Below are positions 3,200 to 59,644 of a DNA stretch of 64,000 bases, piece after piece. Under the pieces are notes generated by a model, which saw nothing but the letters and a program-made list of their open reading frames with translations, ran no database searches and was not told where the DNA came from. The stretch is from Malus domestica. Lineage: Eukaryota; Streptophyta; Magnoliopsida; Rosales; Rosaceae. Positions within the stretch are counted from its first letter, which is position 1; every line of letters starts with the position of its first letter. The position numbers and the translations under genes were made by a program. The DNA is taken from contig NC_091676.1 in the NCBI RefSeq assembly GCF_042453785.1, positions 69,501-133,500 of the forward strand, read 5' to 3'.

Positions 3200-3849
3200 T
3201 GTAACAACCCGTCCCGATATTTATTTTACGAATTTTTTGAACGAGGGCATTTTTGTAATTTCATTGGAATTGAGCTAGATATTTTTTATTGGTTGCCTTT
3301 GACCTTATTTGGTGTGTCAAGGGGGCCCACCCTCTGATTTCCTGTTCCCGGCCCATTTTCCCTCTCCCGTAGCACTCCCTCTCAGACTTTACTCTCTCTA
3401 TCTTTCTCCCTTACTGCATTCTTTTCCCCTGAGCACCACACACACACACTCACCCACTCCACCTACATGACAACAAACCACCACCACCTTTCACCACCGC
3501 AAGTGAGGAACCTAGCTTGAGACCTTAAACCTTGCTGCGATGGTGGTATTGTTCATCTTTGTCCCCAAGCGAACTCCGACGAGTTTCTCGACCTCCGACA
3601 TGGAAACCACCTCGGAGAACTAAACCCAGATTCCGACAAGAAACTGTGATTTCTAGGCTATTTTCCGACCAACTCCAGCCACCACATGTCTTGAAATTGG
3701 TGCAATTGTTTATGGCATTTTCATCATCTCTTGTTTGCACGGCTCTTCGCCAACGATGTAAGGTGAGTAGACCCCTTCAAAAATGCATATTTTACTATTA
3801 GAAATGCATACATGAAAATCATGATTTATTGATTACATTTTATGAAATG
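3200..3849 (+). mobile_element. Gypsy-type LTR fragment, split by copy A
   Basis: It starts TGTAACAACCCGTCCCG, the start style of long Gypsy LTRs also seen at 27446, directly after a polypurine-like tract. It is interrupted at 3849 by the insertion of copy A, and the AT-rich sequence after that insertion (7901 onward) is probably its continuation. Open frames here (for example around 3532-3801) run through the Gypsy leader and have no recognisable protein. Confidence 0.55.
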
Positions 3850-4214
3850 TGTTGATGCATAAAACCGGAGGTCTTAGAACAATGTAAATCCGTGAATCTG
3901 CAAGAAAGTAAATAACACAAGATGTATCGTGGTTCACCCCAATGTTTGGGCTACGTCCACACTGATTTTGTATTTCTGAGAGGATTGTGAGGGAGAGAGT
4001 GTGAGAGCCTCTGTAATGAGAGTGAGGCTTTGAGAGAGGGTGAGAGGGCCTAGGAATTGGCCTCCCTTAATTGTGAGGGTGAAGAGTCCTTTTATAAAAT
4101 AAGGGCTCCTCATTTATTACATATTTGCTCATTCCTTTATTTCATAATTACATTTAAGTCCCCCAAGTATTTGTACGAGATCTAAATACAGAGGCCCTAA
4201 GTATGGTATAAACA
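3850..4214 (-). repeat. 3' LTR of copy A
   Basis: Matches 7537-7900 over its whole length with scattered differences. The plus strand reads TGTTGATGCATAAAACCGG at the left end and GGTATAAACA at the right. It contains a TATA-like TTTTATAAAATAAGG segment near 4090, the likely promoter core of the LTR. Confidence 0.9.
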
Positions 4215-4429
4215 GTAGTCCCCCAAGTCTTCAATCAAGAGAGTCTTTTGGCTGAAGACTTGAAATTAAGTCCATGTGTGGGCCGAAGTAACTAGAGGTC
4301 GTCTAGGACTGATACCTGATATGAGGCGGTGCCCAATCCGAAATGATGCTCAACCAGAAGTAGCACATGTTGCGAGGCTGCTCTGTTTGTGGCTTATGTT
4401 GTCTTGGTTGTCTCGGCTTGTGGCGTTGG

Positions 4430-4690
4430 AGGTGAGGGAGTCCCTTTTATAGAATAAAGGCTCTCTCCTCAATACATAAATGATGGGCTAGAGTCAATGC
4501 TCGTGGCGAGCCGGTTGCTCAGTAAGCGGTGATGCTCTCTAATAATGGTGAGGGAGTCCCTTTTATAGAATAAGGGCTCGCTCCTCAATACATGAATAAT
4601 GGGCTAAAGTTGATGCTCTCTAATGATAGTGAGGGAGTCCCTTTTATAGAATAAGGGCTCGCTCCTCAATACATAAATAATGGGCTAAAG
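4430..4690 (-). repeat. Reiterated TATA-containing units in copy A
   Basis: Three units carry GAGGGAGTCCCTTTTATAGAATAAGG (in part), at about 4436, 4552 and 4630. Each is followed by CTCCTCAATACAT. On the minus strand each reads as a TATAAAAGGGACTCCC promoter-like cassette. The sequence resembles the TATA region of the element's own LTR. Confidence 0.8.
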
Positions 4691-4859
4691 TCCCCCAAGT
4701 ATTTTTCATGAGGCCTAGTTAAGGCCCAATATATGGTATATAATGTAGTCCCTCAAGTCTTCGGTCAATAGAGTTTGTTGGCTGGAGACTTCAAATTGAA
4801 TCCATGTATGGGCCGAAGTGGCGGTTGTTCGGAGGCGATATTTGTATACCCTGCACTGA

Positions 4860-5155
4860 AGCTTTGTAGGTGAAGCTTTGTAGGTGAAGCTTTGCAAGTG
4901 AAGCTTTGAAGCTGGAGCTCTGTAAATGAAGTTTTTGAAGCTAGAACTCTGTAAATGAAGCTTTTGAAGCTAGAGCTCTTGTAAATGAAGCTTTTGAAGC
5001 TAGAGCTCTGTAAATGAAGCTTTTGAAGCTAGAGCTTTTGTAAACGAAGCTTTTGAAGCTAGAGCTTTTGTAAATGAAGCTTTTGAAGCTAGAGCTTTTG
5101 TAAACGAAGCTTTTGAAGCTAGAGTTGTGTACATGAAGCATTTTGAAGCTGATTG
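4860..5155 (-). repeat. ~31 bp tandem array with GAAGCTTTTGAAGC core
   Basis: About nine imperfect units of roughly 30-31 bases, each with TAAATGAAGCTTTTGAAGC followed by TAGAGCT. The core AAGCTT palindrome and the GAAGC half repeats recur in every unit. Copy B has only about three such units (56236-56310). The open frame across this array on the minus strand is repeat-driven and is not treated as a gene. Confidence 0.85.
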
Positions 5156-5360
5156 ACATGGGTGATGCTCATGAATGTTTATGTTGATTGATATGAGTGA
5201 TGCTCATGGATGTTGACATGAGTGATGCTCATGAATGTTGACATGAGTGATGCTCATGAATGTTGACATGAGTGATGCTCATGAATGTTTATGTATGATT
5301 GATATGAGTAATGCTCATGAATGTTTATGTATGATTGACATGAGTAATGCTCATGTATAA
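5155..5360 (-). repeat. ~25 bp tandem array with ATGAG-N5-CTCAT dyad
   Basis: About seven units based on TGACATGAGTGATGCTCATGAATGTT. Each holds the dyad ATGAG...CTCAT and is 24 to 38 bases apart from the next. The same array, similarly repeated, is found in copy B at about 56030-56235. Confidence 0.85.
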
Positions 5361-5364
5361 TTTG

Positions 5365-5480
5365 AAGTACTGGGCGTACTTTTAATCACCTGGTTAGTGA
5401 TAATAGCGACAAGCAGCCGAATAATTTGGAGTACTGGGCGTACTTTTGATCACATGGTTGGTGCTATTTTGGGCTTGTGG
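5365..5480 (-). repeat. GTAC-dyad repeat, two units in copy A
   Basis: Two units contain GTACTGGGCGTACTTTT followed by GATCACNTGGTT. The GTAC-N5-GTAC dyad is shared with the five-unit array in copy B (55750-56030). Confidence 0.75.
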
Positions 5481-6039
5481 GCCTTCACCCTCCACACAAC
5501 ATTTCAGCCCATTTATTTTGGGCTTTGCTATTTTTTTTATTACCCTATGACGGGGTTTATACAGATGTCTCCAAAAGATAATAAATCACATCATATAAAA
5601 ACAAGAAAAGTAAATCACATCATTCTGGTGGGGTGTTTATTCATTACTTTTGCTTTCTCTTTTGCTTTCTCTTTTCTTTTCTCTTTTCTTTTCTGCTTTT
5701 GTTTTTTATGCTTTTCTTGATCTCCCCGCTTCTTTTCTGTCCACCTTGTTTTGTAAGGTATCTTTTGCTTGCAAACCCACTTGCTTTGGTCATGCCCATC
5801 CATTCTCACTTCTCTTTTTCCTTTTTTTCTTTTGCTTTTCTGTTGTACTGCAGGTTTAAGCATGGGTGAGCTGCGCAAATGCCATCCCACATTCACCATG
5901 AGATCTGTGTAAAGTCAGTATACTTATCCAATTGCTTTCATTCTTCCTCTTTTTCCTTTATTCCACTTTTGCTTTCTCAGAAAAGTGGATTTCTTCACAG
6001 TTGTGCTGGGGGTGATCATCTTTCCTAACCCTGACTTAC

Positions 6040-6330
6040 GATTTTGACTGTTGTAATGAAGAATTGTGATCCGTTGGTGTCTGGCCCAACATTTGTCATA
6101 GAAAGAATACCTGGCCCGGTATGCTGTATTTCATCTGCAAATTTATCATCGTAAATTGATTCTCCACCTCGTCCATCACTGAGAGTGAAATCACCTCCCT
6201 ATATCATAAAGCTGGGGATCATCTTATGAAATGTACTGCCTTTGTAGTGAAGAGGCTTCCTACTCATTTCCGTTCCTTTTTCTCATGTGCAAAGTGCTCG
6301 AAAATTCTTTATGGTTTTAGGAAACGATTC
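6040..6330 (-). pseudogene. Captured cyclophilin (PPIase) gene fragment in copy A
   Basis: The minus strand encodes recognisable cyclophilin pieces: NFRALCT, then [34 protein letters not shown] and [15 protein letters not shown]. These are the central half of a plant single-domain cyclophilin, a peptidyl-prolyl isomerase. The match stops at 6040 directly before a GTAAGT splice-donor sequence, which suggests capture of genomic DNA with an intron edge. It is a dead fragment carried by an LTR element, not a working gene. Confidence 0.85.
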
Positions 6331-6429
6331 AATTGAAGCAGCTACACAGACGGAGGGCTTTGACCCACATGCATAAACCTTGTACGAGTCTCCCAAGTTC
6401 ATCGGAGGGCTCTGACCCTCGAATGCCAT

Positions 6430-6577
6430 GGCCGAGAAAAGACAGCTGTGTGTCGGTGCCGTCGAGGACTTCGTTCCCAACGTTGATGCACGTGATTTTG
6501 GTCTGAGGGAGATGGAGCTGCACGTGCTGCTGAATCCAGGATTGGGCTCTGAGAGGGTCGGTGGACATGCTCTGCAA
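6430..6577 (-). pseudogene. Captured GH17 beta-1,3-glucanase fragment in copy A
   Basis: The minus-strand translation includes DPLRAQSWIQQHVQ, HLPQTKITCINVGNE and GTDTQL, matching the middle of plant glycoside hydrolase family 17 glucan endo-1,3-beta-glucosidases (family pattern AQSWIQQHVQPHLPQTKITCITVGNE). Only about 48 residues are present; the catalytic domain is mostly absent. It abuts the BRCT fragment at about 6577. Confidence 0.85.
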
Positions 6578-6792
6578 GTGGGATCAATGGGGAGTCCGAC
6601 ATCAAAACCATAATGGACCCATAAAGTAGTGACAAGAGTCTTGGCGTTATTTCGAGCAGCAACACATACGGGATCATCATACACAATTTTATCTACAATG
6701 ATGTGGTTACAATCGGATGAATAGTGGACAATATCCTCTCTGTCGCAATCTACAAGCTTAGATCGAACCTGGTGCTCGTCAACGGGGTCGGG
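6577..6792 (-). pseudogene. Captured BRCT-protein gene fragment in copy A
   Basis: The minus strand encodes DPVDEHQVRSKL, then HIIVDKIVYDDPVCVAARN, KTLVTTLWV and GFDVGLPID. This resembles the N-terminal BRCT domain of the plant BRCT-containing DNA repair protein (Arabidopsis At4g02110 type, from memory). About 72 residues are kept in an open frame that begins farther upstream (7113) in unrecognised sequence. The family identification rests on remembered sequence. Confidence 0.7.
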
Positions 6793-7536
6793 TATGTCTC
6801 GGACTGGCTCTGTCTCAGGTCTGGTCGGCACCGACCCATTAGAAACATTGAAAGACCCAAAAGGAAACCGGTGAGAGGTCATCCGTCTAGTAGTAGAACT
6901 CTGACAAGTCGAGCTCTTAGAGCGACTGACAGGCCGAGAACAAAAGGTCGAAGTCGGCACCGAGAGGTGATTGAGCTCTTTGATGCCAGCAGACGATCTT
7001 GACGTGGCGCAATCCCGACCACAGATGGGAGATGATCCGGACGATAGAGGGCGATCGGGAGTAGGCTGTGAGTGAGGTGATGAATGGGAATGTGTCACAT
7101 AGGCGTTGGGCAAGGAGAAAAGGGGCAGTGTTGGCGGTGGTATGGACGATGTTGTTCTTTTTTAGGCTTTTGAAAGTTTTTCGAGTATAGACCTTGCTCT
7201 CCGTGAACCTTTGTTTCTCTCTGACTCTATCACCTTCTCCTACTGTAGGCCTCGAAGCCATCGCCTTGATAGTATAGATATGATGGATGGCTGAGATCAG
7301 TTGGAGGTCAATGCCCAATTGGTTGTGTTGTATGTCTCTGTGATTTGCTTGTGGAATTGGAGGCTATTGGTCAGCGGATTCAAGAGAGATGCACCTGAGT
7401 TTCTCTTTTTCTCTGTAGATTGAATAGGTGTGTCTCTGAATGTGCGTGTTGGGTTTCTGCAAATTCACGGCGGAGGTGAAAAAATGAAAGAGAACCAACA
7501 CAACTTTTTGTATCGTTTCCCACAGACGGCGCCAAA

Positions 7537-7900
7537 TGTTGATGCACAAAACCAGAGGTCTTGGAACAATGTAAATCCGACTGTGAATCTGCAAGAAAGT
7601 AAATAACACAAGATGTATCGTGGTTCACCCCAATGTTTGGGCTACGTCCACACTGATATTGTATTTCTGAGAGGATTGTGAAGGAAAGAGTGTGAGAGCC
7701 TCTGTAATGAAAGTGAGGCTTTGAGATGGGATGAGAGGGCCTAGGAATTGGCCTCCCATAATTGTAAGGGTGAGGAGTCATTTTATAGAATAAGGGCTCC
7801 TCATTTATTACATATTTGTCTCTTCCTTTATTACATAATTACATTTAAGTCCCCCAAGTATCAAGATCTAAATACGGAGGCCCTAAGTATGGTATAAACA
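7537..7900 (-). repeat. 5' LTR of copy A
   Basis: Direct repeat of 3850-4214. The primer-binding site lies just inside it on the minus strand (about 7518-7536, TTTGGCGCCGTCTGTGGGA). A TATA-like element lies near 7783 within the shared TTTTATAGAATAAGG segment. Confidence 0.9.
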
Positions 7901-7905
7901 AAACG

Positions 7906-8636
7906 TTTATGAGTAAATTGGTTTCACACTTTATGAATTATCATGCTTTAACGACTTTACATTCCTTGTGATATATATAATTAATGACTATATACATACT
8001 TGTGAACGTGGTTTTACGATATGATGTTTTAACTATAATTCTTATAGACTTAGGACAACTCATCATGGGCTAGAAAATCCCAACAATCTCCCCCTAAACA
8101 ATGAGGAAGGTATACCAAAATAGGATTGCTCCTCTTGATCAAACTCTCATTGATCGAACTTCTCATAACCAGGCTCCTTCTAATTAAACTAGTCATAACC
8201 AGAATCCCCTAATCGAACTAATCATAACCACACTTCCCCTGATTGAATTACTCATGATCATTTCCTTTTATTGAACTACTCATAATGAGGCTCCCCTTGA
8301 TTGAACTACTCATGACCAGACTCTCATTGATCGAACGCCTATGTGACCAAGATCCTCTTGATAAGACTTTGTTTGACCAGGTTCTCCCTGATCGAAGTAC
8401 CCATCTTCATTGGCACAGGCAATTATAGATTTCTTTGCCATAAAACATCCCTCATGTTTATTTTGGTCCGATAAGCATCAAACATACTTGTTGACTTGCT
8501 CTTAACACCTTCAATAAAACATATCCTCCATTCTTGATTTCCCCGTAACCTAATTGGAGCGAGGTGAGTTCCATCTTGGTACTAATCGAAGCCACCATTC
8601 TAAACAGATATCAGATAACCAGACTTTGATACAACT
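7906..8636 (-). mobile_element. LTR-element debris with ~30 bp tandem repeats
   Basis: 7906-8087 is AT-rich and probably continues the LTR split by copy A. At 8088-8097 the minus strand reads TAGGGGGAGAT before TGTTGGGATTTT, a polypurine tract and LTR start. 8110-8400 holds roughly ten degenerate units of about 30 bases built on TTGATTGAACTACTCATGACCAG. No coding region was recognised. Confidence 0.5.
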
Positions 8637-32490: not shown

Positions 32491-33698
32491 GGGTAAATTA
32501 CATAGTAGCCCCTCAGGTTTGAGGTCTATTTGCAATCTTATACAACATCTTTAAAACATTTCACTTTCATACCTCAAGTACTATTTTATTTCAATTTCAT
32601 ACAACCGTTACATTTTTCATCCATGGATCTGTTAAATGCTGACGTGGCTGCCACATATATGCCATGTGGCTGCCAAATATCTGCCACGTGGCAAATAAAA
32701 TATTTTTTAATTTTTTTTTAAAAAAACCTGAAATTGAAAAAAAAAAAAAAAAAAAGGGACCGAACCCCTGCAACCCAGAAGAAGAAGGAGGAAGAAGAAG
32801 AAGAGAAGAAGAAAGAGGAGGAGGAGGAAGAAGAAGAAGAAGAAGAAAAAAAAAAAGAAAGAAAGAAAGAAAGGGACCGAACCCAGAAGAAGAAGGATGA
32901 AGAAGAAGAAGAAGAGGAGGAGGAGGAGGAGGAGGAGGAGGAGGAGGAGGAGGAAGAAGAAGAAGAAGAAGAAGAAAAAAAAAGAAAGAAAGAAAGAAAG
33001 GGACCGAACCCAGAAGAAGAAGGATGAAGAAGAAGAAGAGAAGAAGAAAGAGGAGGAGGAGGAAGAAGAAGAAGAAGAAGAAGAAGAAGAAGAAGAAGAA
33101 GAAGAAGGGGACTGAACCCAGAAGATAAGAAGAAAGAGGAGGAAGAGAAGAAGAAAGAGGAGGAGGAGAAAGAAGAAGAAGAAAAAAAAAAGAAAAAAAA
33201 GAAAAAAGAAAGGGACCGAACCCAGAAGAGAAGAAGAAAGAGGAGGAAGAGAAGAAGAAAGAGGAGGAGGAGGAAGAAGAAGAAGAAAAAAAAATGATCG
33301 AACCCTATAACCCAGAAGAAGAAGGAGGAAGAAGAAGAGGAGGAGGAGGAGGAGGAGGAGGAGGAAGAAGAAGAAGAAGAAAAAAAAAAAAAAAAGGGAC
33401 CGAACCCAAAATAAGAAGAAGAAAGAGAGAAAAAAAGAAGAAGTGGTAGACAGGTTTTTTAAAAAAAAATTAAAAAAATATTTTATTTGCTACGTGACAA
33501 GACAAACATTTGGCAGCCACATGGCATATATGTGGCAGCTACGTACGTCAGGATTTAACAGATCCATGGATGGAAAATGTAACGGTTGTATGAAATTGAA
33601 ATAAAATAGTACTTGAGGTATGAAAGTGAAATGTTTTAAAAATGTTGTATAAGATTGCAATAGACCTCAAACCTGAGAGGCTACTATGTAATTTACCC
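32491..33698. mobile_element. Mutator-like element with long terminal inverted repeats
   Basis: Terminal inverted repeats of about 230 bases (32491-32720 and 33466-33698) start GGGTAAATTACATAGTAGCC and run through CATCCATGGATCTGTTAAATG to a poly-T/poly-A edge. A perfect 9-base duplication AATTATTTA flanks the element (32482-32490 and 33699-33707). Long inverted repeats with a 9-base duplication are the mark of Mutator-like elements. No transposase is present; the interior is a purine minisatellite. Confidence 0.9.
32735..33445 (+). repeat. GAA/GAG purine minisatellite inside the MULE
   Basis: About 700 bases of nearly pure purine on the plus strand. Five or six higher-order units each begin GGGACCGAACCCAGAAGA and continue with (GAA)n and (GAG)n runs. 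The long Glu- or Arg-rich open frames here are products of the repeat and are not called as genes. Confidence 0.9.
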
Positions 33699-34021: not shown

Positions 34022-37000
34022 ATGGATTTGGACCAGTGGATCTCAAAGGTGAAGGAAGGACAGCATCTTCTGGAGGACGAGCTTCAACTCCTATGCGAAT
34101 ACGTCCGTATCTCTATCTCTTTCTTTCCTTTATCTACATTTCTACATCTAGGGTTTTTGCACATATCTAAGCCTGTTGGTCGCTGTTAAATTCAAATTGG
34201 TTTTTGTAATCGCTTTGTCTAATACGTTTGATTTCTCGATCAATTTGGGCATCCGATTTCTATGTAGCTTGTTCACTCAATTTTTGTTCACAAACGATCT
34301 TTGACTAACCGGTGATTGAGCTTGAGTAGCTAATAGACTGATGGGCTTCAAGATTCAATACATACCCCTTTGATTAAAAGTAGAAAGAAACCATCTTTCT
34401 CTTTCTTTTTTTTGGTTCCCCCCCTACTCACTGCCTGCATATGTTTAGGGTTGCCCTTGCATGTCACAGAGAGTATGTTACAGTTCATTACTCAATGCTT
34501 AACGTTATCAACACTCTTGATCATGCTCACCATAGTTTACTCAATCTTTTTTTTCATTACACGTCAATTACTTGTTTGGCAAAAAGAACTGCTTTTGGCT
34601 ACCGAATCCAAAACCTGAAATACCTAGTTTGGAAGTCTAGTGTTACTTGTGATATGCACTCAGTAGATAAAGTTGGTTTTTCAAAATTTTGTACGGGACT
34701 GTCTGATACATAAATATGTGCAGCGGTTGGAGAGCGTATTACTTTTGTCCACATCCAGCAAAACCGTGAAGTTTCATTTGAGCCTGTCAATTCTGACTTC
34801 CCTCTCACGTCATGCGAGTCTCACCATATAACAGTGGGTCCCACACAATTGTCCTGAGAGGGAGGTAACTTATGACGGGCTCATACAATAATACACGTAC
34901 ATGTTAAGCTAGTTATTGAAAATGGTTAGCGCAATATTATTCTTCGAAGTGCCATGTAGAAACATTCCTGTGGCTGTGTAGGTTATTTACTTTGCTATTT
35001 TCTAATTGTCTATGTTTTTAGTTGGTGATGATGATCTGCTTATGGATTAATATAAATAGTCCCATGAGTAGTAGTTTCAGGTTTTCCTTATCTAGAGGAG
35101 TTTTGTAATTTTTGTTGCCCTTGTTTGTCATTTTAACTATCACAGGTAAAAGAGATTCTTATTGAGGAGTCCAATGTGCAACCTGTAAACAGTCCGGTCA
35201 CTGTTTGTGGCGATATTCATGGCCAATTCCACGACCTAATGAAACTTTTCCAGACTGGAGGCCATGTACCAGAGACAAATTACATATTTATGGTATGATT
35301 TGTATTTTTTTTGTTATTAAATTTGATAAAATCTCTGCACGTCATCATAAAAATATTGTTTGGTTGTCTTCTGGTGGTGTTTAATATTCCTAGCTTGTTT
35401 GCAGGGCGATTTTGTTGATCGAGGATACAATAGCCTTGAAGTTTTCACTATCCTTTTGCTTCTTAAGGCGAGGTACAAATATTTTAGACTTTTGTTTGGA
35501 AGAATGTGTTTTAATAATGAGGTCTTTACTTTTCAAATTACTATTTGCAGTCATGCACGCTACTTAGCGTTTTGGTACTTGTGCACCATATAATTATGCC
35601 TTTGATGTGCATTGCAGCCCTATGATATGCCGTGTATGGTTTAGTTATCATTTGGGTCAGTACTAAATGGATAATTTCAGTAATAAGAAAGAGTCTTGGA
35701 AGCTATCACTTACGGGATTATGTTTTATAAATTTAACCTGTAGAACGAATACAATTTGGAGTTTACAGTTGGGTTCATTGCACCAAGGTACCCACTCTGA
35801 AATGTTGGTCTGTTTCGTTATGAAAGGCTAAATTGTTGTATGCATTCTACCTTTTTAATTCTCTCTCTTTTCTGTTCTTTCTAATCTCTCCTCTCTCTCC
35901 TCTCTTCTCTCTTCTCTCTCTTTCTGGTTATCATCTTGCTTTTTTGGTGGGAGGAAGAAGCGTATAGGTCTGAGAAGATGTGCGGTGTGTTGTACTTTTA
36001 TGCGCAAACGGAAGCAAATTCTAACAAAGTACCAATATTAACGTCGTAGGTGAAAGCTAAAACAAACAATCTCAAACTAACACGAGATTTACGTGGTTCG
36101 GCGTAAAGCCTACTCCACGGGCGAAGCACGGCAAGGAATTTCACTAAACAAACGGAGATTACAAAAGAGTGTTTAAACTTTCACAACCCAAATCCCACAA
36201 ATTACAAACCCTAAACCAAATGAGTAGAGAACCCAAAACTAACGGAGAAGATTCATCTAAATTGCTCTCTAACTTACAAACTCACAAATTGACTCTCACC
36301 AAATTGCCACACGAATGAGCCACACAAAATACACTAACCCTAAGGTCCTATTTATAGTGCATAGGACTTAGGTTACAATAGGAATCCTAATAGGAAATAA
36401 ATCCGAATCCTAATCAAATAGGTAATTAACAAAATCTATCCACCAAGGAAACTAACTAAAAAGTCAAAACCAAACCCAAATAGGACACCAAAACCAAATA
36501 GGTATCACAAACCTAATTTATTGCATCATCCTAATTTTTAGCCGACCCCACTTAGTGGGAAAAGGCTTTGTTGTTGTTGTTGTTGTATCCTAATTTTTAG
36601 CCAAAAACCCAACAATCTCCACCTCGGCGAGAAATTAGCAAACTTCCAAATTTGGGATACCAAAATACAAACGCAAACGTGCACCAAATTCTTTCGAAAC
36701 TGATCTCCACCTAGACTCAAAAAATCCAAAAGTCTTCAAACTTGAAATTTCCTCCAACGCCTTCTCCAACAAATTTCATTATGGAAACTAACAAATACGA
36801 AACAAAATCCAAGCAAAAACTTGAACATACGAACAAAAAGTACGAATTGCACTCCACCCAAAGAGCTTGAGTACCAAGCTCACCTCTTCACATAACCCTT
36901 AGAGGAGTTCAGAACAACGATCTTCTGCTAAGTTTGCATCAACACTAGCAAAAGACTTATCAAACTTCTTTTTGCCCTTGAGTTTAGGGCAATCTACTTT

Positions 37001-40000
37001 CCAATGACCTTCCTTATAACAATAGCTACAAGTGTTCCTTCCAAGTTTGCTCCTTTCCTTATTCCTTCCTTGAATTACCAAAGCTCCATCTTGTGTGTTA
37101 GACACTTTATTCTTTAGCTCTTTAGAATTCAAAGCAACTTTAACATCTTCCAAACTAAGACTTTCTCTACCAAATAGTATGGTATCGACAAAGTGTTCAT
37201 ACGAAGGAGATAAAGAACACAACAGAGTTATCGTATAATCCTCATCACTAATTTGGTTGTCCACACTTTTCAAATCCATCATAAGTTTATTGAATTCATC
37301 AACATGCTTATGAATTGACATACCTTCATCCATACGAAGAGTATGCAAACTTTTCTTCAAATACAACCGTTTAGCAAGGGATTTGGTCATATACAAGCTC
37401 TCCAATTTTATCCACAACTCCAGTGTAAATTTGATGCTACCAACTTCACGCAAAACTTCATTCGATAAAGTCAGCAGGATTGCTCCAAGTGCCCGTTCCA
37501 TAACGTCTTCTTTTTCTTCATCAGTCCACGAATCCGGCAAAGCCTTCACACCCATTAGCGTTTTCAAAAGCCCTTGTTGAACTAACAAAGCACGCATCTT
37601 CAATTGCCAAATACCAAAGTCATTGCCGTTGAACTTTTCATTATCAACTTTCACCGATGACACAGAAGGCTTCATAGTGACTGCCAAGCAAAGCCCAAGT
37701 CAAAACCTGGGCTTTGATACCACTTGTTGTACTTTTATGCGCAAACGGAAGCAAATTCTAACAAAGTACCAATATCAACGTCGTAGTTGAAAGCTAAAAC
37801 AAACAATCTCAAACTAACACGAGATTTACGGGGTTCGGCGTAAAGCCTACTCCACGGGTGAAGCACGGCAAGGAGTTTCACTAAACAAACGGAGATTACA
37901 AAAGAGTGTTTAAACTCTCACAACCCAAATCCCACAAATTACAAACCCTAAACCAAACGAGTAGAGAACCCAAAACTAACGGAGAAGATTCTCCCAAATT
38001 GCTCACAAACTGACAAACTCACAAATTGACTCTCACCAAATTGCCACACGAATGAGCCACACAAAATACACTAACCCTAAGATCCTATTTATAGTGCATA
38101 GGACTTAGGTTACAATAGGAATCCTAATAGGAAATAAATCCAAATTCTAATCAAATAGGTAATTAACAAAATCTCTCCACCAAGGAAACTAACTAAGAAG
38201 TCAAAATCAAACCCAAATAGGACACCAAAACCAAATAGGTAACACAAACCTAATTTATTGCATCATCCTAATTTTGAGCCAAAAACCCAACACGGTGATG
38301 GCTGTTTTTTGGGTAATTTGGGGGGAGAAGAATAGAAGGATATTTGACAATGTGAGGGTGATGATGTGGATTAGTGGGGGGAGTGGGTTTGCTTCTAAAC
38401 ATCTGTATGGGTTTTGATCTCTTAAGAGTTTAGGGATGGATTTTCTTTTGCGTTACTTTTTTTTAGTTTTTTAAATCAGAATGCAGCTCTTTATTAATGG
38501 TTCCTGTTTCTTTGCTTATGTTTTTAGGTTCATGGTCCATTTCTTTTTAGATCTTTGTTTTCTTAAGAGTTTTGGAAGCGTTCTTTTTACTGCTGTTTTG
38601 TTCTTATAAAAATTAGACAGTTTTAGGGCTCGTTTGGATGTGCTTTTAAAATGACTGAAAGTGCTTTTAGAGAAAATATTTTTGGGTTCCAAAAGCACTT
38701 CAAGTGCTTTTTGCAAGAAGCACCAATTGTGTGCTTCTTCTAGGAAAAACACTTCCAGGATTTACTTGCATTTATATTAAGGATTGGTTCTAAAACATTT
38801 CCACCAAAAGCGCTTTCAATTATTTTAAAAGCACATCCAAACGAGCTCTTAATTATTATCTACATCAGGAGATGATGAATGGAATGCGAGATTGCTTTAA
38901 CTTTCAACTTCTCTTTGTTGACAATCTCAAATTTTATGAGATGTTTAGGTTTTTCTTCTCGTAGCTAATGTAGTCTTCTTTTACTTGTGGCTATAGATAT
39001 CCAGCTAATATTACCCTTTTGCGTGGTAATCATGAGAGCAGGCAACTTACCCAGGTATGATATTATATAGATTGTATGGTGTTTTGGAAGAGACAATTAT
39101 TAACGATACCCTCTAGTGTTTTGTTGAATACCAAAATTGGGAGCAAGGGTTCCAATGCTGTTTTTATTTGTTTGCATTTTGTTCTTTTGAATATTATTGT
39201 GTTAAAGCTATTGGTGGCTGGAATGAAATTGCAGTTCAGTGTATTCAGAGGTACTTTAGAGCACTTTTTGTGCCGACCATACTCAAATATTGCAATGTAA
39301 TAGACTTGTTGGTTTGGCATGTAATGGTTGCTTAATATAATGGAGTCGATTGCAAGAGTTGTGTGCTAAAGGTTGAGTTGATAAATGAATTGCATGAATC
39401 TGAGTAAGAAATCCCAGATATTAGTGTTTCCATTTTTCTTATTCCTAGAATATATAGGAGGTCCAGGTGCATATGTATAATTTAGATCCAAATGTTCAGT
39501 AGAGGGACCTGATTAGGAGGTTACTGCCATAGCAGCATTTATTTAACTGTCTGTGCATGGAGTTTTGTTGCTGGCATTGTCAGTTGAATCCTTATCAATT
39601 AAAGTTGATCTCTGCTAGGTATATGGCTTTTATGACGAATGCCAGAGGAAGTATGGAAATGCTAATGCCTGGCGGTATTGTACAGATGTTTTTGACTATC
39701 TGACACTATCGGCAATTATAGATGGAACTGTAACCTTCTCTCCCTCTCCCCTTCTCTCTTGTCTATGTATATATATGTATGTGTTAGTATGCATATATCT
39801 CTTATCTCTGTCTCTGTGCATATTCCTATTTGTAACTTTGATTGCGTACTTTTTGATGGCAAATATGTTTATGTGGTTTGTCTTCCCAGGTGTTATGTGT
39901 CCATGGTGGACTTTCTCCTGACATCCGAACAATTGATCAGGTAAACCGTAATTTTTTTTGTATTATTTTTGTTCATATTATATATATAAGCATTTATGTT

Positions 40001-53330: not shown

Positions 53331-53689
53331 TGTTTATACCATATTTAGGGCCTCGTATTTAGATCTCATACAAATACTCGGTGGACTTAAATGTAATTAT
53401 GTGATAAAGGAAAGGGCAAATATGTAATAAGTGAGGAGTCTTTATTCTATAAAAGGACCCCTCACCCTCACAATTGAGGGAAGCCAACTCTTAGGCCTGA
53501 AACCCTCTCACATCCCCTCTCATATTACAGAGGCTCTCTCCCTCACTTCTCAGAGAAAGACAATACAACCAGTGTGGACGTAGCCCAAACCTTGGGGTAA
53601 ACCACGATACATCTTGTGTTATTTACATTTCATGCAGATCCACGGTCGGATTTACGTTGTTCCAAGACCTCCGGTTTTGTGCATCAACA
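53331..53689 (+). repeat. 5' LTR of copy B
   Basis: Begins TGTTTATACCATATTTAGGGCC and ends GTGCATCAACA. A TATA box TTCTATAAAAGGAC lies at about 53445-53458, followed by the CT-rich start of the likely transcript. Confidence 0.92.
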
Positions 53690-54453
53690 TTTGACGCCGT
53701 CTGTGGAAATCGACACGAAAAGCTATGTCGGTTCTCCCTCAATTTTCACCTCCGTCGTGGATCTGCAAAACCTACACAGAGACACAGACACAGAGCTCTC
53801 TCTCTCTCCACGTCCACCAATCCACTCCAAATTCTAAATTCTAGAGCCATAATCAGAATCTGTCTCATAAATGGAGGTCTCCTAACAAAGCAACCTCTGA
53901 GATAGTGTGGTGGAACTGACCAAAAGGGCACAACAAAAGAGAGGAGATAGAGCTTTGTTTGAGTATATCTATCAGCTTCTAGAGAGAAAGAGAGGAGAGA
54001 GCAAAAAAAAAAAAAAAAAAAAAAAAACTGATAGTGACAACTCTACGAGTTCCCTTGCTGACAACGGTCAAGACGGTGGGTCAAGCTCGCCATGAACGAC
54101 GAGGCGATGGTCGTCGACCTTCTTCTCCTCCTCAAGCACGCCGCGCCGTCTTCGCTGTCGAAACACCATGGACTTCCCCAACCACTCCCAGAGCGGCGGC
54201 GCCAGGTCCAAGCAGCAACAGCAGCAACCCGTGTTGGCTCTAGACCTTCGTGCCCTTCGACACGCTCCCAATCTCGCTCTAAGTCCTTCACCTCTTCCTC
54301 CTCTCCGTCTCGGGGTAAGAACCCGACAGAGCATAGATAGCAGAACCATGGGAGCGTTGACGAAGAAGGAGCTGACGGTGGCGGTGGCGACTCCGTCTGT
54401 GCTGCGCTGGAGTGTGCATGGAAGAAAATGATATGGAGAATGGGATGTTTCAG

Positions 54454-54707
54454 GTGAAAAGCGTGGAAGAGGCCATGAATGTTTTGTTGCCCCAAAAGCC
54501 TCAGCATGTTAGGGACTTGATGAAGATCTCTTTTTACATGCCTGTTAAGAATGTCCCCCTTGTTTTCTCAATGATTTTATTGAGGTGATGTGTTCAGAAC
54601 ATCTTCAAGAGAGGAAAGAATTGATTCAAGCACTACACAAGGACATGAAGTTGTCTGATCTTCCGAAGATAAACCATCCAACACTAATCATCTGGGAAGA
54701 GCATTGA
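54454..54707 (+). pseudogene. Captured alpha/beta-hydrolase gene fragment in copy B
   Basis: Readable pieces are VKSVEEAMNVLLPQKPQHVRD, then LMKISFYMPVKNVP, EVMCSEHLQERKELIQALHK and KLSDLPKINHPTLIIW. They match the part of plant alpha/beta-hydrolase-fold proteins just before the catalytic-acid loop. The catalytic serine region is not included. It is a decayed captured piece inside an LTR element, not a gene. Confidence 0.8.
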
Positions 54708-54959
54708 AGCCCGCGAGTTTTATTAAAGTTTTCAGAGTCCTCCCAAATCTTCAAAACCATCATTCGTTGTTGATTTCTCTTCTGTTTGATTTGAAGCGCA
54801 ACCCTGGTAATCCGGGATGTCTGAGCCAAAGCTTCAATCTTCACCATCCACCTGGCGATTAAACTTGGTTTTCATCATTTGGGTTCTGCTATAAATCATC
54901 CCTTCAGTGTTTGAGTTCTTCACATCCACTCGCTCATTCACTCTGGTTTGTTTCTCGGT

Positions 54960-55240
54960 CCTCCAATTTCTTTGTTTTTTGCAAAAATGGCCAACTTTTT
55001 GGGGATTTTCACAGCGAGGAACTTGCTTGGGTTGTCACTGGCTCTTAATCCGAGCTTGGTTTTGAGGGTGGTTTACAAGAGTGGGAAGGATTGGGGCCCA
55101 CATGGGTTCTCTGTGGAGGAGCAGAGAGGGCCGTCAATGGCGAACATGAGTTTTGGAAAGGAAGCTCAGGCAACGCAGATGACGCGTCTGTCCGCTCCTT
55201 CTTCTTCTTCTTTTGGCCAAGATGTCATGGACAAAGTTAT
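54960..55240 (+). other. Unrecognised open stretch in copy B
   Basis: An open frame (54948-55619) begins with MANFLGIFTARNLLGLSL and WGPHGFSVEEQ-type sequence that looks less repetitive than its surroundings and may be another captured host piece. I do not recognise the family. Farther along, the same frame runs into the glucanase fragment in another frame and then into an A-rich element tract, so it is not called as a gene. Confidence 0.35.
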
Positions 55241-55266
55241 CAACTTCGACAAATTCAAGTCTCAAA

Positions 55267-55420
55267 GTCCAGAGCTTGAGCTTCGGAATCAACTATGGAC
55301 AAATAACCAACAACCATCCATCTCCGTCGCGAGTGGCAGTCCTCATCCAGCCCCTCAACGTCAGCTGCATCAAACTTTACGATGTGGGTCCGAACGTCCT
55401 CCAAACCTTCAGCAGATGCT
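55267..55420 (+). pseudogene. Captured GH17 beta-1,3-glucanase N-terminal fragment in copy B
   Basis: The translation reads SLSFGINYGQITNN, then PSPSRVAVLIQPLNVSCIKLYD and GPNVLQTFS. This is the N-terminal strand-helix of the GH17 barrel (family pattern GINYGQIANNLPSPSRVAxLLxSLNVxRVKLYDADPNVLxAFS). The match stops at about 55420, where A-rich element sequence begins. Copy A carries a more C-terminal piece of the same family. Confidence 0.88.
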
Positions 55421-55749
55421 GATGGAGATACCAAGAAAGGCAAAAGAAGAAAGCAGAAAGAAAAACAATCAAGTGAGCTGCGGCACAAAAGCAAAAGACA
55501 GAGGTGCAGTGGGAAACAGAAACAAAAGCAAAAAACAAAAGCAGAAAAGAAATGAGAAGGCAAAAGGGAGGCACATGGGGACACTGCAAAAGCAAGGAAT
55601 AAACACCCCACCAGAATGATGTAATTTATTTTCCTTATCTTTCGGAAACATCTGTATAAACCCCATCAGAGGGTAAAAAAAAAAAACGGCAAAGCCCAAA
55701 ATAAATGGGTTGGCATGTTGTGGAGGGCGAAGGCCCATAAGCCCAAAAT

Positions 55750-56030
55750 AGCACCAACCAGGTGATCAAAAGTACGTCCAGTACTCCAAAATTATTCGGC
55801 AACCTGCCACTATTACCATCAACCAGGTGATCAAAAGTACGCCCAGTACTCCAAAATTATTCTGCAACCTACCGCTATTACCACCAACCAGGTGATGAAA
55901 TGTACAACCCGTACTCTAATATCATTTGGCAACTAGCCATTCATGCCACCAACTAGGTGATGAAAGGTACAACCCGTACTCTCCTTCATGCCACCAACCA
56001 GGTGATCAAAAGTACGCCCAATACTCCAAA
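55750..56030 (+). repeat. ~57 bp tandem array with GTAC dyad in copy B
   Basis: About five units start ACCAACCAGGTGATCAAAAG and continue GTACGCCCAGTACTCC. The GTAC-N5-GTAC dyad is conserved in most units. Copy A has two such units. Confidence 0.85.
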
Positions 56031-56310
56031 TTATACATGAGCATTACTCATGTCATTCATACATAAACATTCATGAACATCACTCATGACAATCATACAT
56101 AAACATTCATGACCATCATTCATGTCAACATTCATGAGCATCACTCATGTTAACATTCATGAGCATCACTCATGTTAACATTCATGAGCATCACTCATGT
56201 CAATCAACATAAACATTCATGAGCATCACTCATGTCAAACAGCTTCAAAAGCTTCATTTACAGAGCTCTAGCTTCAAAGCTTTACTTGCAAAGCTTCATC
56301 TACAAAGCTT
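56030..56310 (+). repeat. ATGAG-N5-CTCAT array and GCTTCAAAAGCTTC units in copy B
   Basis: About eight units of CATTCATGAGCATCACTCATG spaced by roughly 25 bases (56030-56235), then about three GCTTCAAAAGCTTCATTTACA-like units (56236-56310). It is the counterpart, in reverse orientation, of 4860-5360 in copy A. Confidence 0.85.
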
Positions 56311-56499
56311 CAGTGCAGGGTATACAAATACCGCATCCGAACAACTGCCACTTCGGCCCATACATGAATTTAATTTGAAGTATCCAGCAAACAAACTCTA
56401 TTGACCGAAGACTTGGGGGACTACACTATACACCATATATTGGGCCTCAACTGGGTCTCATAAAAAATACTTAAGGGACTTAGCCCATTATTTATGTAA

Positions 56500-56626
56500 T
56501 GAGGAACGAGCTCTTATTCTATAAAAGGAACTCCCTCACTTTCGTTAGAAAGCACCCATCACTTATGTATTAAGGAGCGAGCCCTTATTCTATAAAAGGG
56601 ACTCCCTCACCACCATTAGAGAGCAT
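56500..56626 (+). repeat. Reiterated TATA units in copy B, left of the nested LTR
   Basis: Two units carry TTATTCTATAAAAGG followed by ACTCCCTCAC (about 56513 and 56584), spaced by about 70 bases. Two further units lie beyond the nested LTR at about 58915 and 59030. Confidence 0.85.
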
Positions 56627-56631
56627 CGCCG

Positions 56632-58840
56632 TGTTACAACCACCCCCAAAATAATTGGAAAATTTGTTATTTCCACCCCTCTGCCACGTGTCGATCATCA
56701 ACCTCTCTTCTTTTTCTCTCTTTTTGACCCCCTCTGTGACCTGCTTCTTCTTCGTCTCTCCCTCTCGTAGCTCTCTCACTCTCCTGTGTATCTCTCTCCC
56801 TCAAAACTCTCGTCTCTCTCTCTTCCCCTGGACTCTCGAAGACCATATCACCCTCAGGAAAGGCTCGCCATAAGCCCATGACTGTCTCTCTCTGCGAGAT
56901 CGACGGCACGGAGCAAAACTCCGGCGAGCATTTTCTTTCTTTTTGTTGAGGTAAATCACAAATCTCTCATTCTCGTTGTTACCTTGATGTTTGGTTGTGA
57001 TTTAGAAGCTTGAACCTTCCTCTTTTACGTAGATTTTGCTTTAGAAATCAGTGTGGGTGAACACACCCATTTTTCCGGCGAACCGTGGACTTTGGGAGCT
57101 TTTTCCGGTCACCTCCGACCGAGTTATGGTTTTTGGAAGGTATAAACCTCTTCCTCTCTCCTTGTTCTTCATGGTTGTACTTAGATCGGAGCTTAAAGCT
57201 CATATTTTCAGGTGACCGGAGCTGTAGCAGCTCCGGCCTTCTTCTTCCTCGGCACCAGGCCGTCTGGCCTCTCCCATTTCCTCCTCGGGCCTTAGGCCCG
57301 TGTGGTCTTTAGCCCAAAACCCTAGTCCCCTTTATTTTTTTTAGTTAGTTTTGTTATTTGGTTTCTTTTTAAAACCTTAGGGCCTTGGGCCGGTTAGATA
57401 TTAAAGGGCTTAAGCCCTGTCTTTTTTTTTATAAGGCCTTAAGGCCTTTATATTTTGGTGGTGTATGTGAACCGTGTGTGTGTGAGTGCATTTAGGCGTG
57501 TGTGTGTGTGTGTTGTTAAGTATATGTTTGGGCTTAATGCCCAAACCCCTTTCCTAACCCTAAACCATTTTAACCCAAAACCCTAGGTTCCTAAAATCCT
57601 TTAAAAACCCTAAACCCATCCAATCCCTAATTCCCTATTTTATTTAATTCAAACCCAATATTTTAGAAAATCATTTTATTTATTAATTATATTTTTGTGC
57701 TTAGGTAAAGTTGCTATTAAGGAAATTCGTAATCCTGATTCGCACGATTCTTCTGCTAAGGAATATTTGTGAGTGGATCCCTTCTAAAATTACATGATTT
57801 TATAGTTTAATTGCATAAATGACTAGCATGCCTACGAAATTTGCGAATTGATTTATATCAATCCTGTTTACTGGATTTATTGATTTCGTCTCGTGTTTTG
57901 GTGAGGAAATAAATTGTTAGCCTAGTTTGAGCTATATTTTAATATATCGTATTTTCTATAAAAACCATGAACTGGTAGACTATCAGATAGATGACGATAG
58001 GATGCTAGAACATGTTTTTGAACCCCTCTTTATAGTGTAGACGATGATCGGTAACCTATGCTATGAAGTGGTTATTTATGAGAGGCGTAAATATTTGTGC
58101 GTACCTAGTAGACACTATGCCGCCTGGGGCGAGGATCTGGTGTTGGCATGTAGGCCGGGAGAAATAATCCCTAGCGAAAGGCTGAGGGACACAGAGACAG
58201 GCATTGGGCCGGGAGGGAGTTATCTCTGGCTACGGGCACAGAGACTTAGGTGCAGGCATTGGGCCGGGAGTTATGTTTATTCGGTGATCTTACTAGCAGC
58301 ACACCGCGTTTACGAGACGATCTGTGAGACGATTCATGCTTTGGTTTTACGCGATGATATTCCGCGATATGGCTTTTGAGATATTTTTGGCATGCTAGGA
58401 TTTTGATTTAAATCCATCACTTACTATGCTAGTAGTTTTCACTATTAAACTTTGGGGGTTAGTATGTTGATAATTGTTTTATTATTATATATATATATAA
58501 ACTTGGTCCACTCACCTTTGTTTTGCGCCCCCATTCAGGACTTAGAATCAAGGCACCTAATCCCGGCGTGAAGACACTTCTGCAGCAGCATCTTCGGATC
58601 CTCTCGATGTAGGACCCATTTATTCATTAAATTTTATCTAAATTCCTTTTAGTGATTAGGTTTAGTTGTATGCTCCGAGCACGTTCCTAAAACTTTTAAC
58701 TCATTGTATTTCAAATTTCTAACCCTTATTTATTTCTTATTCTTAGCTTTTGTATCAATTAATGGCTTTCGTCACCCCCGGGTGTCGGCCAGCACGTGTC
58801 GGTCTTGGTATTCGGGGAATATCAGGGTCGGGGCGTGTCA
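56632..58840 (+). mobile_element. Solo Gypsy LTR nested in copy B, 2.2 kb
   Basis: It runs from TGTTACAACCACCCCC to GGTCGGGGCGTGTCA and is flanked by a perfect CGCCG duplication (56627-56631, 58841-58845). Removing it rejoins the tandem TATA units of copy B. Its box TTTGTTTTGCGCCCCCATTCAGG (about 58517, in part) is shared with the solo LTR at 27446. Open frames such as 57085-57312 and 58044-58379 belong to the LTR. Confidence 0.93.
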
Positions 58841-59273
58841 CGCCGCCTACTGAGCAACTGCCTCGTCGCGAGCATCACTCCTAACCCATTATTCATGTAC
58901 CGAGGAGCAATCCTTTATTTTATAAAAGGGACTCTCGCACTTTCATTAAAGGGCATTGCCGCCAGCTGAGCAACCGTCTCGCCGCGAGCATCACTTTTAG
59001 CCCATCACTTATGTATTGAGGAGTGAGCCCTTATTCTATAAAAGGGACTCCATCACCTTCAACGCCACAAGCCGAGCCAACCAAGACAACATAAGCCACA
59101 AGATGAGCAGCCTCGCAGCATGTGCTACTTCTAGTTGGGCATCATTTCAGATTGAGCACCGCCTCATATCGAACATCAGTTCAAGACAACATCTAGTTAC
59201 TTCGGCCCACACATGGACCGAATTTCAAATCTCCAGCCAAAAGACTCTCTTGACTGAAGACTTGGGGGACTAC

Positions 59274-59644
59274 TGTTTATACCATATTTAGGGCCTCGTA
59301 TTTAGATCTCGTACAAATACTCGGGGGACTTAAATGTAATTATGTGATAAAGGAAATGGCAAATATGTAATAAGTGAGGAGTCCTTATTCTATAAAAGGA
59401 CCTCTCACTCTCACAATTGAGGGAGGCCAACTCTTAGGCCTGAAACCCTCTCACATCCCCTCTCACATCCCCTCTCATATTACAGAGGCTCTCTCTCTCA
59501 CTTTTAAGAGAAATACAATACAACCAGTGTGGGCGTAGCCCAAACCTTGGGGTGAACCACGATACATCTTGTGTTATTTACATTTCATGTAAATTCACGG
59601 TCGGATTTAAGTTGTTCCAAAATCTCCGGTTTTGTGTATCACCA
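59274..59644 (+). repeat. 3' LTR of copy B
   Basis: Matches 53331-53689 with scattered differences and one 12-base tandem duplication (CCCCTCTCACAT). It ends GTGTATCACCA before the TGTTG duplication. Confidence 0.92.

Follow-up and report, generated by a model that had tools for sequence, protein, structure and literature searches.

A 64,000-nucleotide stretch of the Malus domestica genome (C16:69501-133500 on contig NC_091676.1, hereafter the window) contains, at positions 3850-7900, a bounded long terminal repeat (LTR) element of 4.05 kb, referred to here as copy A. Its sense strand is the minus strand, and parts of no fewer than five named host genes (MAX2-like, BRCT, GH17, NIPA, and cyclophilin) lie in its interior. 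The two LTRs (5' LTR, 7537..7900; 3' LTR, 3850..4214; both minus strand) align with 92% identity over 370 columns and have TG...CA termini, the 5' LTR reading TGTTTATA...CATCAACA. Flanking the element are AAACG (7901..7905) and its partner AAATG (3845-3849), a target-site duplication that matches at four of five bases. Divergence of the LTR pair under the Kimura two-parameter (K2P) model is 0.064, equivalent to about 2.5 million years at an assumed rate of 1.3e-8 per site per year or 8 million years at an assumed 4e-9.

Because a primer-site motif, TTTGGCGCCGTCTGTGGGAAA (7515..7536, minus), follows 7537-7900 on the minus strand, that repeat is taken as the 5' LTR and the recognized gene pieces are in sense orientation. 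The motif lies inside a leader common to the family (7449..7536, minus; sense positions 365-452 of copy A), and its GGCGCC core recurs in 9 of 10 bounded relatives. Cargo extends from about 7448 to 5818 (~1.75 kb). An A-rich tract and then the conserved, tandem-repeated 3' tail of the family occupy 4231..5701 (minus), the sequence shared with other copies running from about 5701 to 4215, and a purine-rich tract with the sense sequence GACTTGGGGGACTAC (4215..4230, minus) directly ahead of the 3' LTR is, by analogy, a putative polypurine tract. Units of ~30 bp (GTAAATGAAGCTTTTGAAGCTAGAGCT) are repeated in tandem within the tail at 4860-5150. Direct LTRs, TG...CA termini, a short target duplication, a predicted primer site, and a purine tract together indicate, at the level of sequence features, an LTR retrotransposon. 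At 4.05 kb with 364-bp LTRs, copy A exceeds the very small size and short LTRs of terminal-repeat retrotransposons in miniature (TRIMs), and its LTR ends and intron-free captures do not fit a Pack-MULE or a Helitron. A first-pass annotation of the window had placed an LTR element without gag or pol at these bounds. The bounds were confirmed; the lack of gag and pol holds for the four copy A open reading frames (ORFs) scanned, none of which matched gag or pol in Pfam (tail ORFs lay outside that scan), and agrees with a longest ORF of 292 codons in 3500-8400.

Host donors were sought by comparing copy A positions 6000-7113 with the whole genome (651 Mb in 19 contigs), scoring 28 of 28 candidates and listing 35 matches. 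This 1.1-kb stretch matched separate loci on C3, C7, C9, and C11 with E values from 9e-24 to 9e-86. All pieces lie on the minus strand and are described in sense order. The cargo opens with a piece (7141..7448) common, among the loci compared, to element L008 only, followed by a MAX2-like F-box piece (6866..7140) that is 88% identical over 275 bp to a host locus at C9:28779445 (L006). This host locus is open for 698 codons, and its protein matches MAX2/D3 structures with E values down to 7e-245. After a short piece (6791..6864) whose match begins at the identical base in L002, L003, and L043 comes a BRCT piece (6576..6790), in which three exons of host loci at C3:37606878 and C11:32478143 are joined with identities of 96% (24 bp), 87% (94 bp), and 93% (112 bp). 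The GH17 piece (6442..6579) is 96% identical over 138 bp to C3:15195282, and at the BRCT-GH17 joint (6576-6579) both donors read ACTT, a 4-nt overlap. Downstream of GH17 lie the 5' end of a NIPA-type Mg transporter (6377..6441), a piece common to L005 and, in its last 23 bp, to L002 (6325..6376), a cyclophilin piece (6018..6324; 6018-6308 matched to C7:30185513-30185892 and its neighborhood, 6309-6324 assigned by reading), and a piece common to element L044 on C1 (5818..6017).

Domain searches agree with these assignments to differing degrees. The cyclophilin piece matches PF00160 (E = 1e-8) and cyclophilins in the PDB (E of ~1e-18). The GH17 piece matches PF00332 at E = 9e-5, under the Pfam cut-off. 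No Pfam match was found for the BRCT piece of copy A itself; its host gene matches Pfam BRCT at E = 1.2e-5. The NIPA name comes from a longer piece in the sister copy L004 (PF05653, E = 3.7e-7). Two introns of ~127 and ~146 bp, both GT-AG by reading, are absent from the BRCT piece and were lost at the splice sites. The cyclophilin piece aligns to the C7 locus in four stretches (22, 182, 75, and 22 columns) with three introns absent at splice sites, its last stretch joining an apparent alternative exon of that locus. The missing introns show that the BRCT and cyclophilin pieces came from spliced RNA. At the host cyclophilin locus L042 (812-689), an apparent GC-AG intron (CCAG/GCAAGT...ACAG/GTATTC) is suggested by its absence from the captured copy. 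Match loci recurred in pairs on C3/C11, C9/C17, C4/C12, and C1/C7 for copy A and on C2/C15 in a second search described below, which we take to resemble apple homoeologous chromosomes.

The first-pass annotation had recognized three of these pieces, BRCT, GH17, and cyclophilin, within 750 bases of the minus strand, and had proposed DNA alignment to host genes as a check on capture. The measured span is ~770 bases, the BRCT-GH17 meeting point predicted at about 6577 falls at 6576-6579, and all three names survive comparison with host genes, GH17 though its domain match is under the cut-off and BRCT despite its own lack of one. For BRCT, GH17, cyclophilin, and MAX2 alike, host loci exist at other places in the genome, and the breakpoints fall within the element. 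Missing from that three-gene inventory were the MAX2 and NIPA pieces, the exchange of blocks between elements, and the extension of cargo across the family.

Several blocks of the copy A cargo also occur in elements at other loci. The BRCT-GH17-NIPA block, with the same joint, is in L002 and L003 (both on C10) and L004 (C6), at 92%, 89%, and 79% identity to copy A, respectively. L008 (C17) is 86% identical to the first 1035 sense bases of copy A and continues 78 bp deeper into MAX2 before entering other sequence; at its own MAX2 exit point, copy A switches into the L002-type block. L005 shares GH17-NIPA with copy A and has a different piece upstream, of DUF1117/RING type. L007 carries another part of cyclophilin (Pfam E = 7e-9) with the same altered bases, CACATG, at the first exon joint as copy A. 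L044 carries another cyclophilin part, identified by DNA match to copy A, alongside a thioredoxin-domain piece (E = 5.5e-14); further upstream cyclophilin exons in L044 were assigned by reading alone, and its long frame has no Pfam match. Captured blocks were thus copied and recombined between elements, with capture coming first and copying, trimming, and exchange after it.

A second donor search used 1436 bp of element L035, for which the best 40 of 186 candidates were scored and 46 matches listed. In L035, three joined exons match the MYB gene at C15:28927140-28927810 (96 to 97% identity) and lack its 133- and 100-bp introns; the cargo also has a piece matching a C8 cluster at 96% that is a TIR domain by Pfam, further pieces matching C17:8395007 (97%) and C3:21084648 (96%), and then a multicopy piece. 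At two joints, neighboring matches share 4 and 3 bases by their coordinates. Copy A and L035 both have the trait of Bs1-type elements, in which exon-only pieces come from several unlinked host genes. Searched against the genome over most of their cargo, these two elements each join at least four sources.

Boundaries of the wider family were examined in 13 copies, comprising 12 of the 24 survey copies described below that had extra downstream sequence, plus L013. Ten of the 13 had both the tail and a second, similarly oriented LTR, with whole lengths of 3622 to 4186 bp and a cargo slot of ~1.4 to 2.1 kb. L013 had a second LTR without a tail match, L022 a tail only, and L029 neither. Perfect 5-bp target duplications flanked five of the ten bounded copies (L014, L026, L021, L035, and L017), and three more had duplications matching at four of five bases (L018, L019, and L038); L015 and L011 gave no clear duplication. 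An A-rich tract at the border between cargo and tail was seen by eye in many of the copies viewed. The constant ends of the family consist of an LTR, primer site, and ~90-base leader on one side and an A-rich tract, ~1.4-kb tail, and LTR on the other.

To compare what fills the slot, the LTR plus leader was used as a query, which returned 4501 first-look candidates, of which 40 were scored; this is a partial census, and the figure is not a copy number. The survey set contained 24 of 30 loci chosen by LTR similarity, after removal of copy A's own LTRs (L009 and L028), leaderless LTR matches (L027, L031, and L036), and a 99.9% duplicate (L016). Over the first 1 kb of the interior, starting 60 bases in, 0 of 276 pairs among the 24 copies matched at 1e-6. 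The interior survey suggested by the first-pass annotation thus shows that unrelated members hold other sequence in the same slot.

All stop-free frames of at least 60 amino acids were then compared with Pfam in both orientations. The 148 sense frames yielded 44 families (25 shown) and the 108 antisense frames yielded 15, although single frames dominated these totals: one L038 frame contributed 15 of the 44 sense families and one PPR frame in L029 contributed 9 of the 15 antisense families. With both frames removed, the comparison was 29 sense to 6 antisense families; some sense families of this survey were never traced to a given copy. In addition, 40 frames picked by eye were scanned singly, and 20 matched (16 of 34 sense, 3 of 3 antisense, and 1 of 3 from copy B, another family member in the window). 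In total, sense Pfam matches were recorded in 13 of 24 copies. For example, L011 carries LRRNT and CASP, L013 a zinc dehydrogenase, L015 FtsJ, L019 ribosomal L12, L020 an amino-acid transporter, L022 GH17, L023 a TPP enzyme, and L038 TOG/HEAT. L018 carries eIF3d and a weak preATP-grasp domain in one frame, L021 LRR and a weak GRAM, and L035 two MYB repeats and TIR. The remaining matches, C2H2 in L014 and RBFA in L024, fell under Pfam cut-offs. Family names read by eye in ORFs without a match, such as enolase and acyl-CoA oxidase, are not claimed.

The PPR frame of L029 was considered as antisense cargo and rejected, as that locus has no tail and no second LTR; for the same reason, the frame more likely belongs to a flanking gene. 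It is a 325-amino-acid stop-free frame (L029 504-1478, plus strand) adjoining the end of the LTR plus leader, and L029 may be an element that is truncated next to a PPR gene.

Copy B (53331..59644, plus strand) belongs to the same family and lies between TGTTG repeats, with LTRs at a K2P divergence of 0.061. Its GH17 piece (55250..55410, plus; 89% identity) derives from the same C3 gene as that of copy A, does not overlap the copy A part, and starts at about the start of exon 2, close to it. The two parts stem from separate captures of one gene or are what is left of a single older capture. Neither of the copy B ORFs at 54549-54704 and 54948-55400 had a Pfam match; the former looked by eye like an alpha/beta hydrolase. 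About 2.2 kb inside copy B (56630-58840), ending in ...GTCGGGGCGTGTCAC, has no match in copy A and resembles a nested element.

Spliced host fragments lie within bounded elements, their joints recur at several loci, blocks recombine, and the cargo of relatives differs. Copy A is very probably a nonautonomous LTR retrotransposon of a high-copy family with constant ends and a slot at least partly filled with host mRNA fragments, which is best explained by template switching onto host mRNAs. That the templates were mRNAs is indicated by the absence of introns and by a mostly sense orientation, and the short shared bases at joints, together with the position between leader and tail, suggest switching during minus-strand synthesis. 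Under such a mechanism, element RNA would be packaged by an autonomous partner and reverse transcribed alongside host mRNAs. The polymerase would leave its template near the A-rich sequence that opens the tail, copy one or several mRNAs via short-homology jumps, and return to the leader, a step required for completion. Once inserted, a chimera would be transcribed, and later rounds would trim it and recombine it with others. As an idea only, a T-rich nascent strand could anneal to poly(A) at the A-rich border.

Some observations weigh against this interpretation. Over the full 1.48 kb of interior, matches between pairs do occur, chiefly in the tail, though L023 and L034 also match over 70 bp and L018 and L038 over 112 bp. 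L010 is nearly free of cargo because tail sequence starts ~200 bases past its leader. Sense Pfam matches are absent from 11 of 24 copies (nine judged through singly scanned chosen frames, with none so scanned in L010 and L017), and two of the 13 positive copies are the subthreshold L014 and L024. The bounded copy L017 carries BRO1 in antisense, which mRNA-to-RNA switching does not directly predict and which would require, for example, plus-strand switching or an antisense transcript as a further event. Neither an autonomous partner nor a poly(A) remnant was found. Donor searches cover parts of two elements (6000-7113 of copy A and 1436 bp of L035) plus, locally, one copy B piece; in L035, one joint overlap is ambiguous because a C9 match continues to 791, and two pieces match loci not identifiable as genes.

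Capture at the DNA level, by a Pack-MULE- or Helitron-like route or as filler DNA at break repair, would readily account for many unlinked fragments per element and for short homologies at joints. It is contradicted for multiexon pieces by the introns absent from BRCT, cyclophilin, and MYB, the single-exon GH17 and MAX2 pieces being uninformative, and the element ends are LTRs with 5-bp duplications, so that this route appears highly improbable. Spliced pieces lying side by side could also be processed retrocopies, made for example by long interspersed nuclear elements and inserted singly into a resident element. However, the BRCT and GH17 pieces meet directly and share 4 nt, the BRCT-GH17-NIPA block has an identical joint at four loci, and overall length is similar in the 10 bounded relatives, which makes serial insertion very unlikely. 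The first-pass annotation had raised the possibility that the interior was inserted separately at a later time and has ends of its own; this is not favored, because joints recur in elements at other loci and other sequence fills the same slot. Read-through transduction of neighboring genes has been proposed for some plant LTR elements (PMC13317346), yet the pieces here are internal, between leader and tail, and come from different chromosomes with several combined, leaving little probability for that route.

A further alternative is that the cargo is kept for a useful chimeric protein, the family acting as a gene-building system under selection. A 292-codon stop-free frame in copy A (6283..7161, minus) crosses MAX2, GH17, BRCT, NIPA, and the start of cyclophilin; 0 of 500 shuffles were as long, and 1 of 500 was as long as the 221-codon frame in L002. 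Over 487 bp, the ratio of nonsynonymous to synonymous substitution rates (dN/dS) was 0.67 for copy A and L002 and 0.61 for L002 and L003, but 0.99 for copy A and L003. The chimeric frame is broken in L003 and L004, GH17 and MAX2 are off frame, and captured coding DNA is stop-poor regardless. With dN/dS of 0.61 to 0.99 and a frame broken in two relatives, there is no good case for a selected protein; this alternative is scarcely probable, and the copy A cargo is mostly dead sequence.

Gene-carrying LTR elements have close precedents. Maize Bs1 has a chimeric interior with pieces of three host genes, one of them a beta-1,3-glucanase (PMC13317346); its pieces hold exons only (PMC4717578), and it is cited as low copy (PMC2774510). 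The apple elements work alike, as LTR elements with exon-only pieces of several host genes, and no sequence kinship with Bs1 is claimed; they differ in that none of the 276 survey pairs matches over the first 1 kb of interior, blocks recombine, and one copy has five named genes. A soybean TRIM carries three genes, and gene-carrying TRIMs such as GmaRetroS15 of soybean hold exons only; 30 elements of this type form 7 subfamilies of 1,172 to 1,449 bp (PMC4717578). These are likewise small, exon-only LTR elements with up to three genes, whereas the apple family has 3.6- to 4.2-kb elements, a long conserved tail, and copy-specific cargo. Pack-MULEs have constant ends, cargo of host gene fragments, and chimeras (PMC13317346), in which they resemble this family, but they are DNA transposons whose captures also hold introns (PMC4717578); here, the ends are LTRs and the route is through RNA.

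Host sequence within LTR elements is also found in maize, rice, sorghum, and pepper. A maize survey of 425 elements describes at least 189 captures and no element that holds two or more standard nuclear genes (PMC2774510). A survey including pepper, tomato, and potato describes two or three genes within single LTR elements (PMC5664825). PMC2774510, PMC3726574, and PMC5664825 give 1398 to 3898 genes inside LTR elements in six genomes and place pepper NLRs mostly in nonautonomous ones. The first-pass view that multigene capture is much rarer for small LTR elements in eudicots is thus fair, with precedents in the soybean TRIM (PMC4717578) and the PMC5664825 survey. The literature searched, whose reach excluded most subscription papers, yielded no recognized description of this family and no account of a single family whose copies each hold a different multigene mosaic.

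LTR capture of host genes has so far been seen mainly as scattered events, mostly of single genes. What looks new here is degree: cargo that is family-wide, drawn from many genes, and exchanged between elements. A stronger proposal, for and against which we see the balance as even, is a "Pack-LTR" lineage in which uptake of multiple mRNAs is the usual outcome of reverse transcription. Its slot, of roughly fixed size, would lie between a leader and a tail that are both indispensable, and insertions would as a rule deliver fresh multigene chimeras while older cargos are traded. If a full census agrees, the family would document, in nature, how reverse transcriptase switches template onto cellular mRNAs. 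Many copies would show the joints, donors, and event order, making the mechanism of retro-capture directly testable, and the family would provide a plant genome with a large supply of shuffled exons and of antisense or small-RNA targets.

Two other repeats were seen in the window. A direct repeat pair at 35988-36287 and 37725-38024 (300 nt, 96% identity, 1.7 kb apart) is possibly a second small LTR element. A repeat array with nine-base spacing occupies 32719-33409, with inverted arms at 32530-32645 and 33545-33660 (116 nt, 97% complementary).

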